This document shows positions 16,545 through 54,600 of a DNA stretch of 64,000 nt, in pieces. The notes below the pieces were generated by a model. That model saw only the letters and a program-made list of their open reading frames with translations, did not search any database and had not been told where the DNA came from. The DNA comes from Polytrichum commune (Eukaryota > Streptophyta > Polytrichopsida > Polytrichales > Polytrichaceae), in contig OX485804.1 of NCBI GenBank assembly GCA_950295325.1, positions 9,362,001-9,426,000 of the forward strand. Direction: 5' to 3'. The position numbers and the translations under genes were made by a program. Each line of letters starts with the position of its first letter. Within the stretch, counting starts at the first letter, position 1.

Positions 16545-16750
16545 CCACCTGCAATCTAGTTGGAGACATCTGTTTCGAAGGTCCAGTTCGGTAAGGTGAT
16601 CCACCTGCGATCCAGTTGGTGACATTTGTTTCGGAGGTCCAGGGTGAAGGTCCACTTCGGAGGTCCAGTTCGGTGCGGCGATCCACTGCGATCCAGTTGG
16701 AGACATTTGTTTCGGAGGTCCAGGGTGAATTTCTAGCGTGAATTTCTAGC
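16545..16750 (+). repeat. Short minisatellite inside the hAT element
   Basis: Words GCGATCCACCTGC, GATCCAGTTGG, GACATTTGTTTCGGAGGTCC and GGTGAATTTCTAG are repeated two to three times in mixed order. Both the CAGTTGG and TTTCGGAGGTCCAG blocks recur at about 60- and 115-bp spacing. It lies just before the coding exon and probably falls in an intron or leader. Confidence 0.6.
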
Positions 16751-17174
16751 TTTCAAACTACAAGCCACCACTGAATGGGGAGATAAGACTTGTGGAGATT
16801 TATGGGGCATGATCACATGGAATCATTCTTTGCAAACCCGATATCCTAATTTGCTTGTCCTTGCTGATTTGGCTAGAGTACAATGTGTATCAACATCCAC
16901 TTGTGAAAGGGCGTTTAGTGTTCAAAATTTGATAAAAACACGAGTGAGAAACAGACTTGGAAGTAAAAATTTGGAAGCTATGCTTAGAATTGCTTTAGAG
17001 GGACCAGATGAAAACTTTGATAATATTATTGAAGAGGCAATTCCTTTGTGGAAAACTGGAACCAAATACCGGTTTTTATATGCTAATCCTTCACGTTATG
17101 TGTCTTCTGCAAGTGATGCATCTTGTTCAGTAAGTTCAACTATGTTTTCTAATTCTGAGGATACGGATGTTTAA
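16750..17174 (+). pseudogene. hAT transposase C-terminal dimerisation domain (partial)
   Basis: The open frame reaches upstream of the ATG at 16809 to a TTTCTAG acceptor-like site at 16743-16749, so it is probably a last exon and not a complete gene. It contains EWGDKTCGDLWGMITW, then YPNLLVLADLARVQ, the diagnostic STSTCERAFSVQNLIKTRVR and NRLGSKNLEAMLRIA. This is the hAT-family C-terminal dimerisation region; in full transposases it follows the RNase-H-like catalytic core. The cysteine-glutamate-arginine motif and the NRL..L..R block are intact. The zinc-finger and DDE core are absent between the element ends, so this copy cannot encode an active transposase. The serine-rich tail ends at TAA 17172-17174. 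Confidence 0.85.
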
Positions 17175-17599
17175 AAGTTGCATGTAGCGTTGTACTAACT
17201 AGCCTCTAAATAATGTATGAACCCTTTTTGGATTTTTTTTTTTTAAAGGCTAAATCCTTGGCCCCAAGTTGGTGGGGGCTTGGCAAGGTTCAAATCATTC
17301 CAAGGATACTTGGATTTTCTATCAACACAAATTCACCCCTTTAAAAACATAACACCAATTTTTTTTTACAATATTTAAAAGAAATCCGACATACAATACA
17401 AATCTTCGGAAACATACCGAAATGAAATTCAGAAAGTCGGAAAATTACCGAATGGTAAAGTTAAATATCGGTTTTTTACCGAGAATAAAAATTGGATTTA
17501 GGTAGCTTCCGAGCAAAAAAATAAAAATCCGAATGTCTTTATAAAAGATCGGAAATGTACCGATTTTTGTATAAAACTCCCCGGACTGTGCCATGGAGA

Positions 17600-18790: not shown

Positions 18791-18807
18791 GATATACCGT
18801 ACGTTAA

Positions 18808-20272
18808 GGGCAGCTTCGGCGCTCTCTTGCCGAATAATTATTAAAAGTTAAAAAACAGTGTCCGGCGGCAAAAAAAAAATTACTAAAAATTTCGGCATTC
18901 TAAATAGTTTAATAATGCAATTTCGGCATACATCCAAGAAGTTATTATCTAACAGTAAACAAGGATGTTCATTCACGATTTCACAATTTGTGTGAAGAGT
19001 TTTACAAAAGATATAAATCTTTCACAATTTTGTGAAGAGTTGAGAATGCTCTGTGCTTTATACAAGTAGAGTGGAGTTGTGTTCAACAATGCATATGGGA
19101 TATGTAAAGTTTGAGGTGAAGAGTCTTCAAATGACATAAAATTTGTTGGAGGTGAAAGATTACTTGATTTCTAAACTTTTCTTAGAGCAACAAAATTCCA
19201 AAAAGTTGATCTTCTATGCACAAATGAGCTCCGAAAAACTGTTATGAACGCATTTTAATTTTTTGATCTTTACACAGCTGCAATGTTTTGTCCATATCTT
19301 TTGCATAAAGACTTATTTTGACACAAAACTTGTTGGAGGTGGAAGATTACTTGATTTCTAAACTTTTCTTAGAGCAACAAAATTCCAAAAATGTTGATCT
19401 TCTATGCACAAATGAGCTCCGAAAAACTGTTATGAACGCATTTTAATTTTTTGATCTTTACACGGCTGCAATGTTTTCTCCATATCTTTTGCATAAAGAC
19501 TTATTTTGACACAAAACTTGTTGGGGGTGGAAGATTACTTGATTTCTCAACTTTTGTTAGTTGGACAAAATTCTATAAAACTTCATCTTCTATGCACAAA
19601 TGAGCTCCGAAAAACTGTTATGAACGCATTTTAATTTTTTGATCTTTACACGGCTGCAATGTTTTCTCCATATCTTTCGCATAAAGACTTATTTTGACAC
19701 AAAACTTGTTGGAGGTGGAAGATTACTTGATTTCTAAACTTTTCTTAGAGCAATAAATTTCCAAAAAAGTTGATCTTCTATGCACAAATGAGCTCCGAAA
19801 AACTGTTATGAACGCATTTTAATTTTTTGATCTTTACACAGCTGCAATGTTTTGTCCATATCTTTTGCATAAAGACTTATTTTGACACAAAACTTGTTGG
19901 GGGTGGAAGATTACTTGATTTCTCAACTTTTGTTAGTTGGACAAAATTCTATAAAACTTCATCTTCTATGCTCAATTGGACTCCAAAAAATTGTGTACAA
20001 CACATTTGAAAAGCCTCACTTAGAGTCTTGCTACTTCTTAACCCATATTCTTTGTGGACTAATGTAAGTGAGCTTGATTACAAAAGGAGCACCTTCTCTC
20101 CTTCAGAGTTCATATATGCTTCCAGTGTAAGTAAAATTCTAGTGAGAAGTAAAAATTTCTTACTTTTCGGCAATTTTGAAAATTAATTAATTTTATATTC
20201 GGCAAAAAATGTCAATAATTTTCTAAAATTTTCGGCGTCTATTTTTAGAATTATTTTGTGCCGAAGCTGCCC
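18808..20272. mobile_element. TTAA-flanked element with GGGCAGCTTCGGC termini
   Basis: The left end GGGCAGCTTCGGC (18808-18820) and right end GCCGAAGCTGCCC (20260-20272) are exact inverses. TTAA adjoins both (18804-18807, 20273-20276). The inverted identity continues outward through CGTACGGTAT, giving 27 bp of perfect inverted repeat (18794-18820 and 20260-20286). Many TTCGGC words in both orientations lie near each end. There is no transposase. A TTAA target is typical of piggyBac- and Kolobok-type elements, but the identity outside the TTAA also permits a longer terminal repeat with a TA or no visible duplication. Confidence 0.75.
19143..20015 (+). repeat. 188-bp tandem repeat, about five units, AABAB order
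   Basis: The landmark TTGTTGGAGGTG (or TTGTTGGGGGTG) occurs at 19143, 19330, 19518, 19706 and 19894, spacing 187, 188, 188 and 188 bp. Units 1, 2 and 4 share one variant (CTAAACTTTTCTTAGAGCAA). Units 3 and 5 share another (CTCAACTTTTGTTAGTTGGA with CTATAAAACTTCATC). The AB pair is therefore itself duplicated as a ~376-bp higher unit. The array lies wholly inside the TTAA-flanked element and has no long ORF. Confidence 0.9.
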
Positions 20273-20289
20273 TTAACGTACGGTATGCA

Positions 20290-30262: not shown

Positions 30263-31985
30263 TGATATTACTCTAAAATATCACAAACTTTCAAGAATCC
30301 ATGACACACACACAAGATGAGTTTATGTTCAAATCCTCTGTGAAGATAATGCCACTCTAGGTTGATAAGAACAAAATGCCATTATATGTCTTTTTGGTAC
30401 ATGTTTGGTACATAAATGATAAACAATGTCTCGAAGCTGCAGAGAAACCAACCGTAACATGTGGGAGGCAGCCTTCATTGCAGTGTATCAATGCTGCTAA
30501 AACTTTATGCCTCACCGCCTTGGAGGAATTTAGGGCATTTCACACGTTGTAAAGGGATGCTAAATTATTATTTAGAGGGAGTAGTCTCAATATATGCCCC
30601 ACTCTATATGAGTTTCATCAAATGTGGGTCAAGTGATCAAAACTAATATCTTACAATACACAAGGCTTTACATAGAAATAATTGAAGCTAAGATTTTGAT
30701 AGTTGGTCAAAGATATTGATAGTTGATTCTCTTATGAAGGAGTTGAAAGTTGGGCCGCAATAGAGGCAAGATATTCCAGTCTAGGACAACGTTTTGGGTC
30801 CCGCCATCATTACAACAGCAATTGGGCCTAGTGCATGGTCTAACTCCCAGACTAAACTTGGCAGTGTCCCGTTGTTGGGCCATGTATCGATAACAAGTGA
30901 ACATGCAATGAACATAAGGTAATGTGACCTTAAAGTAACACCTTCGTTTTGGTGACATCTATTTTTAATCCTTAAGCCCTCAACAAGTGAGTGCAATGGT
31001 GTCATCGAGGAAGTCATTGTTAAAGCAGTTAATCATAAGTTTGCATTAAGTATAAAATAGCACCGTTTCAACCATTCATAATAGCGGTGTATGAAGGATG
31101 CAAGAACATTTTTAGAAGAACACCAACTTTGAGCAATCACAATGGTTGATTAGGGATCTATCCACTCAACGAGGCAATGTAAGAAGTGATTCACAAAAGG
31201 GGGACAACATCTTAAATTTAATAGAAGATCCTAATCTGCAATAAGGTTGATTTTGTGATTATTGTCAGTTAGCAGATCCCCTAGTAGAGAGTGTAGGGCT
31301 CTTTCCTTTAGATGATTTTGCAAATTTATGTAGGTTGCATACGAATTTGTTAATATTTGATTCCCCCCCTCTATAGACTATGTATAGATTCACTAATCTA
31401 TGGATTTTTTCTTGAAAATTTTCAGAGCTACTTAACCTTCTTGAAATAGCAATTTTTCTTCTCAAAGTATCGTTTTAAAACCTCAATACCTTAACACAAT
31501 GAGTCTCAAGAGGTACTCAGTGGCCAATACAGGACTAAAGGTGAGCATGCCTAATTCAGTTACATATCTCAATTGGACACTTATATTTAAGTGATGTGTG
31601 ATTAGGTGTGCATTTAAGAACACACACCAAAAATACATGTGCGTGAATGATTGAACTACATAGATTGTGGTACACCCTTACCTCCGTAATGTCACTCCCT
31701 CTCTTATATCTCAAAACCTTAGGGATGTGCTCATTTTAAATCACCTTCCTTGTTGTCACATTTCCCTTCCATATATCACAATTTTTTACATTAAAATAAT
31801 CCACCAAAGAAAACAGATCATGTGCTTGCACACATCACATTGTCATCATTGTCATTATTGCAATGTTGACTTTGTATTGTTCCATATTGTCACACAATAC
31901 ACTAATTCTTTATTAACACGCATCCATGTTAACACAACAACCCTCCTATAATAACACGTGCACTTTTGGTTGCCACATGCATGAT
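30263..31985. other. Mixed repeat debris, no gene
   Basis: 30590-30760 is a copy of the segment inserted at 13340-13560. 31540-31680 resembles family B sub-copies at 32585-32725 and 58640-58840 (CTCAATTGGACACTTATATTTAAGTG words). The remaining frames (for example 30707-31017 on the minus strand) have no domain. Confidence 0.4.
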
Positions 31986-31989
31986 ATTA

Positions 31990-32381
31990 GGGAGGTTAGA
32001 GTGTATTTAGTGTCACTTACTATGTTGTACCATGTTGTACCATGTTGTACCTTTGTACTTATAATGAACTTTTATATCAAGTGAAGATGCTTGTCATAGC
32101 ATTATGAAGCAATGTGCATTCATTCATATGGGCCCCGAGATTATAATTATGGGATGCTGCAACTAATGTAGATTTAGTCTAAATCTGCACTAGCTATGGC
32201 ATCCCATATTCTCGGGGCCCACATGAACGAATGCACAGTGGCTAATGATGCTATAGTGTTTTACAATGTCTAAACAATTTATTCGACCTTTGTTGGTAAC
32301 ACATGATATCCATACTAAAAAAAAGCTATAGCATTGTGAAATACCAAATAGTAGGTGACACTATATACCACAAATGGTGTA
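31990..32381. mobile_element. Family A-like foldback element with internal hairpin
   Basis: The left end has GTATTTAGTGTCACTTACTA. The right end, reversed, reads TACACCATTTGTGGTATATA then GTGTCACCTACTAT, which is the family A terminus. Three tandem copies of the 10-mer YATGTTGTAC follow the left end (32031-32060). The centre is an almost complete 123-nt hairpin (32114-32236). Confidence 0.6.
32114..32236. repeat. Long hairpin (~60-bp arms)
   Basis: The arm starting GTGCATTCATTCATATGGGC folds back on the arm ending GAATGCAC, with GGGCCCCGAGA/TCTCGGGGCCC and GGGATGC/GCATCCC fully paired. The tip is GATTTA GTC TAAATC. Only a few mismatches and small bulges occur along roughly 60 bp. A related hairpin lies at 62788-62953. 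Confidence 0.85.
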
Positions 32382-34180: not shown

Positions 34181-34249
34181 GTATGTAATAAGTTATGTGG
34201 AGATGCCCTTCCCCCAGCCAACTTGAGTCTCGCAGAGGTTCATGCCCCA

Positions 34250-35173
34250 ATCACACCAAACTTTCTATCCAGATCTAGCCGTGAAATTGTTGGGGATCAT
34301 GTTGAGAAATTGATGTTGACGCACCACTTTTCACATTATTACAACCGGAGATGTTGACAGATGATGCCATAAGTGGCCGATGTGATCAACCCCTCAGGCC
34401 CCAATCACACCAAACTTTATGTCTGGATCTGGCCATGAAATTGTTGGGGATTATGTTGAGGAATAGATGTTGGCCCACCACTTTTCACACTAATATAGTC
34501 GGAGATGTTGTCGGATGGTGCCATAAGTGGCCAGTGTGATCAGCCCCTCATGCCCTGATCACACCAAACTTTCCGTTTGGTTCCAATTGTGAAATTGTTG
34601 GGGATTGTGTTGAGGAAAGGATGTTGGCCCACCACTTTTCACACTATTACAGTCGGAGATGTTGTCGGATGGTGCCACAAGTGGCTACTGTGATCAACCC
34701 CTCAGGCCCCGATCACACCAAACTTTCCGTCTGGTGTTGACCGTGAAATGGTTGGGGATTATGTTGAGGAATAGATGTTGGCCCACCGTTTTTCACATTA
34801 TTACAACCGGAGATGCTGACAGACGGTGCCACAAGTGACCGGTGTGATCAACCCCTCAGGCCCCAATCACACCAAACTTTCCGTCTGGATCTTACCGTGA
34901 AATTGTTGGGGATTATGTTGAGGAATAGATGTTGGCCCACCGTTTTTCACATTATTACAACCGGAGATGCTGATAGACGGTGCCACAAGTGACCGGTGTG
35001 ATCAACCCCTCAGGCCCCGATCACACCAAACTTTCCATCTGGTGTTGACCGTGAAATGGTTGAGGATTATGTTGAGGAATAGATGTTGGCCCACCAGTTC
35101 CCACCCTACTGCAGCCGAAAATGTTGTCGGATGGTGCCATAAGTGGCCAGTGTGATCAGCCCCTCAGCCAGAC
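34250..35173 (+). repeat. 154-bp satellite, six head-to-tail units
   Basis: The landmark ATCACACCAAACTTT recurs at 34250, 34404, 34558, 34712, 34866 and 35020: exactly 154 bp each time with no indels. Units differ only by substitutions. Each unit junction contains GGTGTGATC, a 15-nt spacer (AACCCCTCAGGCCCC) and GATCACACC, so every boundary can form a 9-bp hairpin. Open frames (34351-34539, 34967-35155) are products of the repeat. Confidence 0.95.
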
Positions 35174-51805: not shown

Positions 51806-54600
51806 TCAGACACTTCTACTGACCAACCTCCGCACTGATGCAGACCCAGTCCTTCCCTTGACATCATCCATCTGGCCGCCTCTCATTCCTCGCGCATGGG
51901 CCCATATGAATGTCCCATCACGAAATTTTCTCCTCGTGTCTGGGCATAAGGTAGATGGGTCGTCGCTCGAAGCGCTGAGCATAGGTACTATTATACGATT
52001 ACGAAGTCCTTGTTGGGATTTGAGAAGGGATTCCAACGCACCCAAACATGCTTTCTTTGAATTCCGTATGCAAAAGTTATAAGGGTTTAGATTATTATCG
52101 GTACATGAACCAAAACCAACACATGAGTTGGTGTTAAGGTGGTGGACATTCTTATCATTCCTCATGCGCGACAACCATCCCAATTTCAACCATATGAATG
52201 TCCCATCACGGAATTTTCTGCTCATGTCTGGGCACATTCTGTAAGGTAGATGGCGTGTCACTTGAAGCGCTGAACATAGGTACTATTATACGATTAGAAA
52301 GTCCTTGTTGGGATTTGACAAGGGATTCCAACGCACCCAAACATGCTTTCTTTGAATTCCGTATGCAAAAGTTATAAGGGTTTAGATTATTATCGGTACA
52401 TGAACCAAAACCAACACATTAGTTGGTGTTAAGGTGGTGGGCATTCTTATCATTCCTCATGCGCGACCACCATCCCAGTTTCAACCATATGAATGTCCCA
52501 TCACGGAATTTTCTGCTCATGTCTGGGCACACTCTGTAAGGTAGATGGCGTGTCACTTGAAGCGCTGAGCATAGGTACTATTATACGATTAGAAAGTCCT
52601 TGTTGGGATTTGACAAGGGATTTCAACGCACCCAAACATGCTTTCTTTGAATTTCGTATGCAAAAGTTATAAGGGTTTAGATTATTATCGATACATGAAC
52701 CAAAACCAACACATGAGTTGGTGTTAAGGTGGTGGGCATTTTTGTCATTCCTCATGCGCAATCACCATCCCAGTTTCAACCATATGAATGTCCCATCACG
52801 GAATTTTCTGCTCACGTCTGGGCACACTCTGTAAGGTAGATGGTGTGTCACTTGAAGCGGTGAGCATAGGTACTATTATACGATTAGAAAGTCCTTGTTG
52901 GGATTTGACAAGGGATTTCAACGCACCCATACATGCTTTTTTTGAATTCCGTATGCAAAAGTTATAAGGGTTTAGATTATTATCGATACATGAACCAAAA
53001 CCAACACATGAGTTGGTGTTAAGGTGGTGGACATTCTTATCATTCCTCATGCGTGACAACCATCCCAGTTTCAACCATATGAATGTCCCGTCACAAAATT
53101 TTCTGCTCGGGTCTGGGCACACTCTATAAGGTAGATGGTGTGTCACTTGAAGCGGTGAGCATAGGTACTATTATACAATTACAAAGTCCTTGTTGGGATT
53201 TGACAAGAGGTTTCAACGCACCCAAACATGCTTTCTTTGAATTCCATATGCAAAAGTTATAGGGGTTTAGATTATTATTGGTACATGAACCAAAACCAAC
53301 ACCTCGGGGGGGGGGGGGGGCAGTGTGTTAAAAAGTTAAGGATATAGGTGCGAACAACCACTATTTTATAGGGGGGTATTACTTTCAATTCTTTTTTTTT
53401 TTTCACATGCTATCATTATGTAAATTTCTACTTTGGGTTAATAGAAAAATGGCTTGCATTACTTATAATTCCAAATTACCTATTATTCCATACCCTATAG
53501 TACTTTAAAGATGTCCAGTGCCATTTTTGATACCCTATATTACTCTTAAGTCCATTTATAATTTTTAGCCCCCATGTTTTTAAAATACCCTATCATTTGT
53601 TCGCACGTATATTGCTACTCCAACCAATGACTACCCCCCCCCCCGAGACCAACACATGAGTTGGTGTTAAGGTGGTGGGCATTCTTATCATTCCTCATGC
53701 GCGACCACCATCCCAGTTACAACCATATGAATGTCCCATCACGGAATTTTCTGCTCATGTCTGGGCACACTCTGTAAGGTAGATGGTGTGTCACTTGAAG
53801 CGCTGAGCATAGGTACTATTATATGATTACAAAGTCCTTGTTGGGATTTGACAAGGGATTTCAACGCACCCAAACATGCTTTCTTTTAATTATTATATGC
53901 AAAAGTTATAGGGGTTTAGATTATTATCGGTACATGAACCAAAACCAACACATGAGTTGGTGTTAAGGTGGTGGACATTCTTATCAGTCCTCATGCGCAA
54001 CAACCATCCCAGTTACAACCATATGAATGTCCCATCACGGAATTCTTTGCTCATGTTTGGGCACACTCTGTAAGGTAGATGGTGTGTCACTTGAAGCGCT
54101 GAGCATAGGTACTATTATATGATTACAAAGTCCTTGTTGGGATTTGACAAGGGATTTCAACGCACCCAAACATGCTTTCTTTTAATTATTATATGCAAAA
54201 GTTATAGGGGTTTAGATTATTATCGGTACATGAACCAAAACCAACATAGGAATTGGTGTTAAGGTGGTAGACATTCTTAGCATTGCTCATGCGCGACCAC
54301 CATCCCAGTTACAACTTGATGCATGGGCCCATATGAATGTCCCATCACAAATTTTTTTGCTCATGTTTGGGCACACTCCATAAGGTAGATGGTGCGTCAC
54401 TTGAAATGCTAAGCACATGTACTTTTCTTACGATTAGAAAGTTCTTGTTAGGATTTGACAAGGTATTCCAACACGCCAAAATATGTCTTCTTTGATTTCC
54501 GTATGCAAAAGCTATGAGGGTTTAAATTTTCATTGGTACGTGAACCAAAACGAACACGTGAGTTGGTGTTAAGGTGGCGGACATTCTTAGTATCAATGTG
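51806..54600 (-). repeat. ~295-bp satellite array, eight units
   Basis: The landmark TCTGGGCA(C) or TTTGGGCAC recurs at 51939, 52227, 52522, 52817, 53112, 53760, 54056 and 54366. The spacings are 288, 295, 295, 295, 648, 296 and 310 bp. The 648 is 295 plus 353, accounted for exactly by the MITE and its duplication. Long minus-strand frames (52261-51806, 52761-52501, 53146-52796) repeat SCVGFGSC and NPYNFCIRNSKKACLG. Since 295 is not a multiple of three, the frame shifts at every unit, so these are not a protein repeat. The first and last units share GCATGGGCCCATATGAATG, absent from inner units. Each unit holds the palindrome ACCAAC ACATGA GTTGGT. Confidence 0.92.
53303..53647. mobile_element. 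345-bp MITE with poly-G termini and 8-bp TSD
   Basis: The left end is CTC plus G15. The right end, reversed, is CTC plus G11 and then TAGTCATTGG. ATA(C/G)GTGCGAACAA and a following TAGGG block are also inverted, giving about 75 bp of imperfect terminal repeat. ACCAACAC lies at both edges (53295-53302, 53648-53655). Removing the element and one duplication restores the 295-bp satellite period exactly. Non-coding. Confidence 0.92.

Follow-up and report, generated by a model that had tools for sequence, protein, structure and literature searches.

The window analysed here, a stretch of 64,000 nucleotides (C2:9362001-9426000 of a source genome of 408 Mb in 64 contigs; contigs are labelled C, loci L), contains two arms of 27 nt, 18794-18820 and 20260-20286, that are 100% complementary and lie 1439 nt apart. 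What kind of element do they enclose, and where does it end? A sequence-only reading had reported the same inverted identity without mismatch, which we confirm, and had described a transposon flanked by TTAA on both sides; it proposed that this element either had landed in the centre of a perfect 22-bp palindrome or has a longer terminal repeat with TTAA inside it. piggyBac and Kolobok duplicate TTAA targets, and an autonomous relative of either kind was named there as the partner to look for.

The arms are not a chance repeat. With up to three mismatches allowed, the window holds the end TTAAGGGCAGCTTCGGC at these two places only, and shuffled windows gave a mean of 0.07 matches, two being reached in 0 of 100. 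A genome search with the element end, as suggested by the sequence-only reading, returned 319 occurrences of the 19-mer TACCGTACGTTAAGGGCAG (153 + 166) versus 0 for its reversed-letter control, and 128 of the 14-mer ATACCGTACGTTAA versus 24; loci were drawn from the 100 places listed per search. The shuffles and the count of 319 versus 0 thus rule out coincidence and identify a dispersed repeat family. In addition, the right 157 bp used as a genome query gave 581 candidate places, 40 of which were scored.

The outer limit of the repeat was read from 105 ends, collected in the retrieved loci and the window as matches to TTAAGGGCAGSTTCGNC with at most two substitutions. The nine bases outside TTAA agree with TACCGTACG exactly in 86 ends, with one mismatch in 15 and with two in 4, and conservation drops from 99% at the T of TA to 48% one base further out. 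Nearly all loci were retrieved through at least one matching end, so that the partner ends are the fair, unselected part of the collection. In a first comparison of 23 copies, both ends fit the search pattern in three (L001, L004 and the window copy); the partner end reads TACCG in 17 of the remaining 20, carries one inserted base (TACCCG) in L021, and is altered at the tip in L010 and L019. At position -10, an A stands in 50 of the 105, many loci having been retrieved because of that A; the outermost A of the 27-bp arms (18794) lies outside the repeat. The proposed landing in a palindrome did not hold, since the TTAA-centred palindrome TACCGTACGTTAACGTACGGTA has no match in the genome within two mismatches and the same outer bases stand at both ends of copies in dozens of unrelated places. 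The terminal repeat is CCGTACGTTAAGGGCAGSTTCGGC, and TTAA is an internal part of the conserved end, which was the second of the two proposals.

Empty sites define the target. Both flanks of 65 insertions were joined around one TA and searched among the retrieved loci and the window; for six insertions, paralogous empty sites at least 77% alike were found, with exactly one TA in each. Two of them have empty sites in the window (Table 1), and these insertions match additional sites elsewhere, L072 at L028 (77%) and L065 at L050 (75%). The other four are L080 (at L014 and at a repeat within its own locus, 89-90%), L028 (at L019, 89%, and at L012, 71%), L032 (at L078, 87%), and L043 (at L004, 80%). 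In weaker alignments (69-75%), the site of L011 and that of L067 read TA, and the expected TA is replaced by GA for L071 (74%) and by CA for L035 (two places, 71% and 75%); a self match at L047 was left out as an artefact. The joined-flank search found no empty site for the window copy and the two coding C1 copies described below.

Since the empty sites hold a single TA, insertion duplicates TA and the repeat extends past TTAA. Absence of any duplication is ruled out by one TA at the empty sites versus two at the insertions, and a duplication longer than TA by the flanks, where a direct repeat of at least 4 bp outside the TACCG ends was seen in 0 of 22 copies (2-3 bp in one, 1 bp in two). A duplication of TTAA, and with it the initial description of the element as TTAA-flanked, is ruled out by the empty sites, the conservation of the outer bases, and the lack of the palindrome. 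The alignment of copies and empty sites had itself been recommended in the sequence-only reading, where similarity starting at ATACCG, with a different duplication outside it, was named as the result that would speak against a TTAA element. Essentially this was observed, except that similarity starts at TACCG and the TA itself is duplicated.

A mild preference for A or C before the target TA is seen in a C1 sample (50 loci with a perfect end among the matches listed, 49 retrieved, 47 paired). Of these 94 ends, 38 have C before the TA, 32 have A, 15 have G, and 9 have T; in the window as a whole, C stands before 20% of TAs. Copies that combine A on one side with C on the other number 19 of 47, versus 12.9 expected (permutation p 0.019).

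Table 1. Features of the window element and of related insertion sites in the window (positions in the window)
Feature	Position	Strand	Basis
Non-autonomous element, 1487 bp between both TA copies	18797..20283	.	boundaries from 105 family ends and empty sites
Left TA target duplication	18795..18796	.	single TA at empty sites of other family insertions
Right TA target duplication	20284..20285	.	flank comparison and empty sites of other insertions
Left terminal inverted repeat, 24 bp, CCGTACGTTAAGGGCAGCTTCGGC	18797..18820	+	arm pairing and family ends
Right terminal inverted repeat, 24 bp	20260..20283	-	arm pairing and family ends
TTAA internal to left repeat, no target site	18804..18807	.	palindrome search and family ends
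TTAA internal to right repeat, no target site	20273..20276	.	palindrome search and family ends
Left end common to two coding relatives read through, 92.6%	18795..18983	+	sequence comparison
Right end common to two coding relatives read through, 83-84%	20217..20285	+	sequence comparison
TTCGGC/GCCGAA motifs near left end (element positions 21, 35, 97, 128), where transposase probably binds	18815..18927	+	motif distribution in 41 copies
TTCGGC/GCCGAA motifs near right end (element positions 1372, 1404, 1437, 1466)	20166..20265	+	motif distribution in 41 copies
188-bp tandem unit, 4.6 copies	19132..19994	+	repeat analysis and copy comparison
Empty site for L072 insertion (C1:2209013), 94% over 425 bp, one TA; overlaps hAT transposase fragment	16865..17286	.	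joined-flank search
Empty site for L065 insertion (C1:46598920), repeat 78% alike, one TA	31690..32005	. (match runs 32005-31690)	joined-flank search

The window copy thus has the layout (TA)CCGTACGTTAAGGGCAGCTTCGGC...GCCGAAGCTGCCCTTAACGTACGG(TA), and its longest wholly internal open frame has 65 codons. The tandem array in its interior is passenger DNA; the length differences of several other copies come to about one 188-bp unit. Paired copies measure 0.89-1.49 kb (n=41), and two further ones ~1.35 and ~1.5 kb. All 269 TTCGGC/GCCGAA motifs in the 41 copies lie within 260 bp of an end, with none in 20.8 kb of interior, a distribution that makes the subterminal zones a probable binding region of the transposase. 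Nearest copies differ on average by 1.7% over the left 420 bp and by 1.3% over the right 430 bp, and this low divergence suggests a recent spread of the family.

Loci lacking a partner within ~1.3 kb were considered as coding candidates; for two pairs this failed, L036+L049 (1350 bp) and L048+L050 (~1.5 kb) being longer non-coding copies. A search for ends that then continue into different sequence found none. Fifteen further loci, 14 on C1 and one on C2, have a perfect end without a perfect listed partner (a further C1 copy was omitted). A mutated ordinary partner is present for twelve of these and absent for three (L074, L081, and L085). When L081 and L074 were extended, each proved to belong to a large element with both ends; the two elements occupy C1:69919053-69925906 (6854 bp) and C1:11292319-11300290 (7972 bp). 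They agree at 94% over the left 3 kb, where a transposase frame lies, broken in both, by one in-frame stop in the first and by more breaks in the second. Pieces of the two copies match PF03184 (DDE_1) with 27.0 bits (L089 piece) and 24.8 bits (L090 piece) at a cut-off of 22, and the second Pfam match, PF13358 (DDE_3), is sub-threshold. Elsewhere in these copies, ten open frames match no Pfam family at E 0.01, and PDB sequence searches with the transposase gave no credible match. The autonomous piggyBac or Kolobok partner envisaged at the outset is thereby replaced by coding relatives with a pogo-type domain, their frames broken in both copies read.

A genome search with one transposase piece gave 151 matches; among the matches listed, five loci (the query's own included) are at least 87% identical, and those on C3, C4, and C7 match the L089 piece at 87-91%. 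Both family ends are present at C3:32592896-32597977 and C4:20202574-20212607, each with a transposase match, and the left family end only at C7:40974688. Together with the two C1 elements, four loci thus combine both ends with a transposase match, and they measure ~5.1, 6.9, 8.0, and 10.0 kb; the Pfam scan and frame reading cover the two C1 copies, and those on C3 and C4 are known from their ends and the transposase match. L096 is more distantly related (50% identity to the query piece); it has an open frame of 630 codons and a DDE_1 match of 41.2 bits. The catalytic motifs NTDQT, L(L/I)DCWS, and QP(A/V)DV align in L089 and L096, and the last two catalytic D are 37 residues apart in both, by manual count on the alignment. 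Pfam detected no N-terminal helix-turn-helix or CENP-B-type DNA-binding domain in the C1 pieces or L096. L096 (C2:668150-670150) is the first of four transposase matches with equal scores and 630-codon open frames in an 80-kb stretch of C2; they may stem from local duplication of a related gene that is perhaps intact or domesticated.

The window element is tied to these coding copies by its ends. It is 92.6% identical to the two C1 copies over the first 190 bp and 83-84% over the last 69 bp, the common sequence being limited to ~260 bp of the ends. The coding C1 copies have a few TTCGGC/GCCGAA motifs further inward, one at ~2.2 kb and two at ~540-670 bp from the right end.

Judged from sequence comparison, the element very probably belongs, as a non-autonomous and MITE-like DNA transposon, to a pogo-like family of the Tc1/mariner-pogo group that uses TA targets in a green-plant genome. 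An intact rbcL frame on the 146,561-bp contig C8 identifies the host as a green plant. We assign it to pogo because of the TA duplication, which is shown on non-coding copies, the inverted repeats below 40 bp, the DDE_1 domain, and a D-D-D triad within the range of Lemi. The assignment rests on domain, spacing, target, and ends. The transposase would come from a coding copy with DDE_1, would bind the terminal repeats and the subterminal TTCGGC motifs, and would cut the element out and join it to a TA, with A or C favoured before it.

Among the alternatives, a plant mariner (PlantMar) or a Tc1-like group in place of pogo survives best, although it is unlikely. According to PMC4054914, the whole Tc1/mariner group would be compatible with a TA duplication and short inverted repeats, and DDE_3 is the runner-up in Pfam; however, it is PF03184 that exceeds the cut-off and PF13358 that stays below it, and the last two D of L089 and L096 are 37 residues apart, not the 39 given for PlantMar (DD39D) in PMC7325037. 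Somewhat less likely still, the non-coding family could be moved by another TA-specific transposase and have its ends in common with the DDE_1 elements by descent only. That just 190 and 69 bp are common, the latter at 83-84%, would fit such a history; against it, both kinds of element occur in one genome with the same 24-bp ends and with subterminal motifs that are alike. Finally, a TTAA-specific piggyBac or Kolobok transposon with GGGCAGC ends inside a palindrome has next to no probability, because its one likeness, a TTAA placed symmetrically near each end, is internal to the repeat, and the palindrome count, the outer bases on 105/105 ends, the TA in the empty sites of six insertions, and the transposase pieces of the two C1 copies, above the cut-off for PF03184 alone and accompanied by ten frames with no Pfam match, all point to a TA duplication and a transposase of another family.

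Closest to the present family are the pogo superfamily, its Lemi family, and plant MITEs derived from pogo, among them Emigrant, the partner of Lemi1. A pogo-derived MITE is on record from Arabidopsis. These systems resemble the present family in the DDE_1 D-D-D triad, TA duplication, inverted repeats of at most 40 bp, and short non-coding derivatives; in contrast to pogo and Lemi, the ends here begin with CCGTACG. The portions of the pogo and TA-element literature at hand contain no description of such ends, which is no proof of their being undescribed. PMC7386202 gives Lemi a TA target and a DD29-42D triad, which includes the spacing of 37 found here, and an HTH_Tnp_Tc5 domain, whereas no N-terminal DNA-binding domain was detected in our transposases; according to the same paper it is likewise undetectable in the Mover family. 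PMC7386202 also reports 1.2-5.2 kb for elements of the pogo superfamily, compared with 5.1-10.0 kb for our four two-ended loci, and describes pogo in land plants as restricted, with one small clade in 23 eudicots. A plant pogo-like transposase is also known from Selaginella, in clade 38 of PMC7325037, where groups 33 to 40 are reported as DD35D in contrast to 37 here.

The coding copies differ from one another between the transposase and the right end, where they contain unrelated DNA. The two C1 copies show no usable similarity in their middles, and C3:32595600-32597200 matches neither of them at E 0.001. In the 6854-bp copy, the middle (2.9 kb; L090:1464-4347, C1:69922014-69924897) has a 95% match at C2:25472007-25474881 and a second match, in pieces, at C2:25433292-25436130; neither place has a transposase match among the matches listed. 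We infer that the middle segments may have been captured from host DNA during gap repair; they may also be nested insertions. It is conceivable, as a tentative proposal, that these copies represent a plant pogo lineage, with the 37-residue spacing, no recognisable DNA-binding domain, and CCGTACG ends, whose coding members grow to 5-10 kb by taking up unrelated host DNA in the stretch from the transposase to the right end. If true, pogo would have its own equivalent of the gene-capturing elements of other superfamilies.

The described analysis corrects the plausible but mistaken view of TTAA as a target, and it links a family of non-coding copies with the elements from which it probably derives. 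Once placed in a phylogenetic tree, a young pogo family with some hundreds of ends and diverse related transposases (151 matches) could help to show how pogo elements spread in plants.

Several other features were observed in the window and the genome. An open frame at 16737-17174 that matches PF05699 (hAT C-terminal dimerisation domain, 31.5 bits) is a hAT transposon remnant, and its 94% paralogue elsewhere is the insertion site of a copy of the pogo-like family (L072). On the minus strand, 38999-39091 matches a group II intron (RF00029, 47.5 bits) and may be organelle DNA that entered the nuclear genome. Adjoining arrays of a 295/296-bp tandem unit occupy 51902-53302 and 53648-54589; their consensus units share text, and both are apparently one repeat. 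A 154-bp unit forms a six-copy array at 34240-35167.
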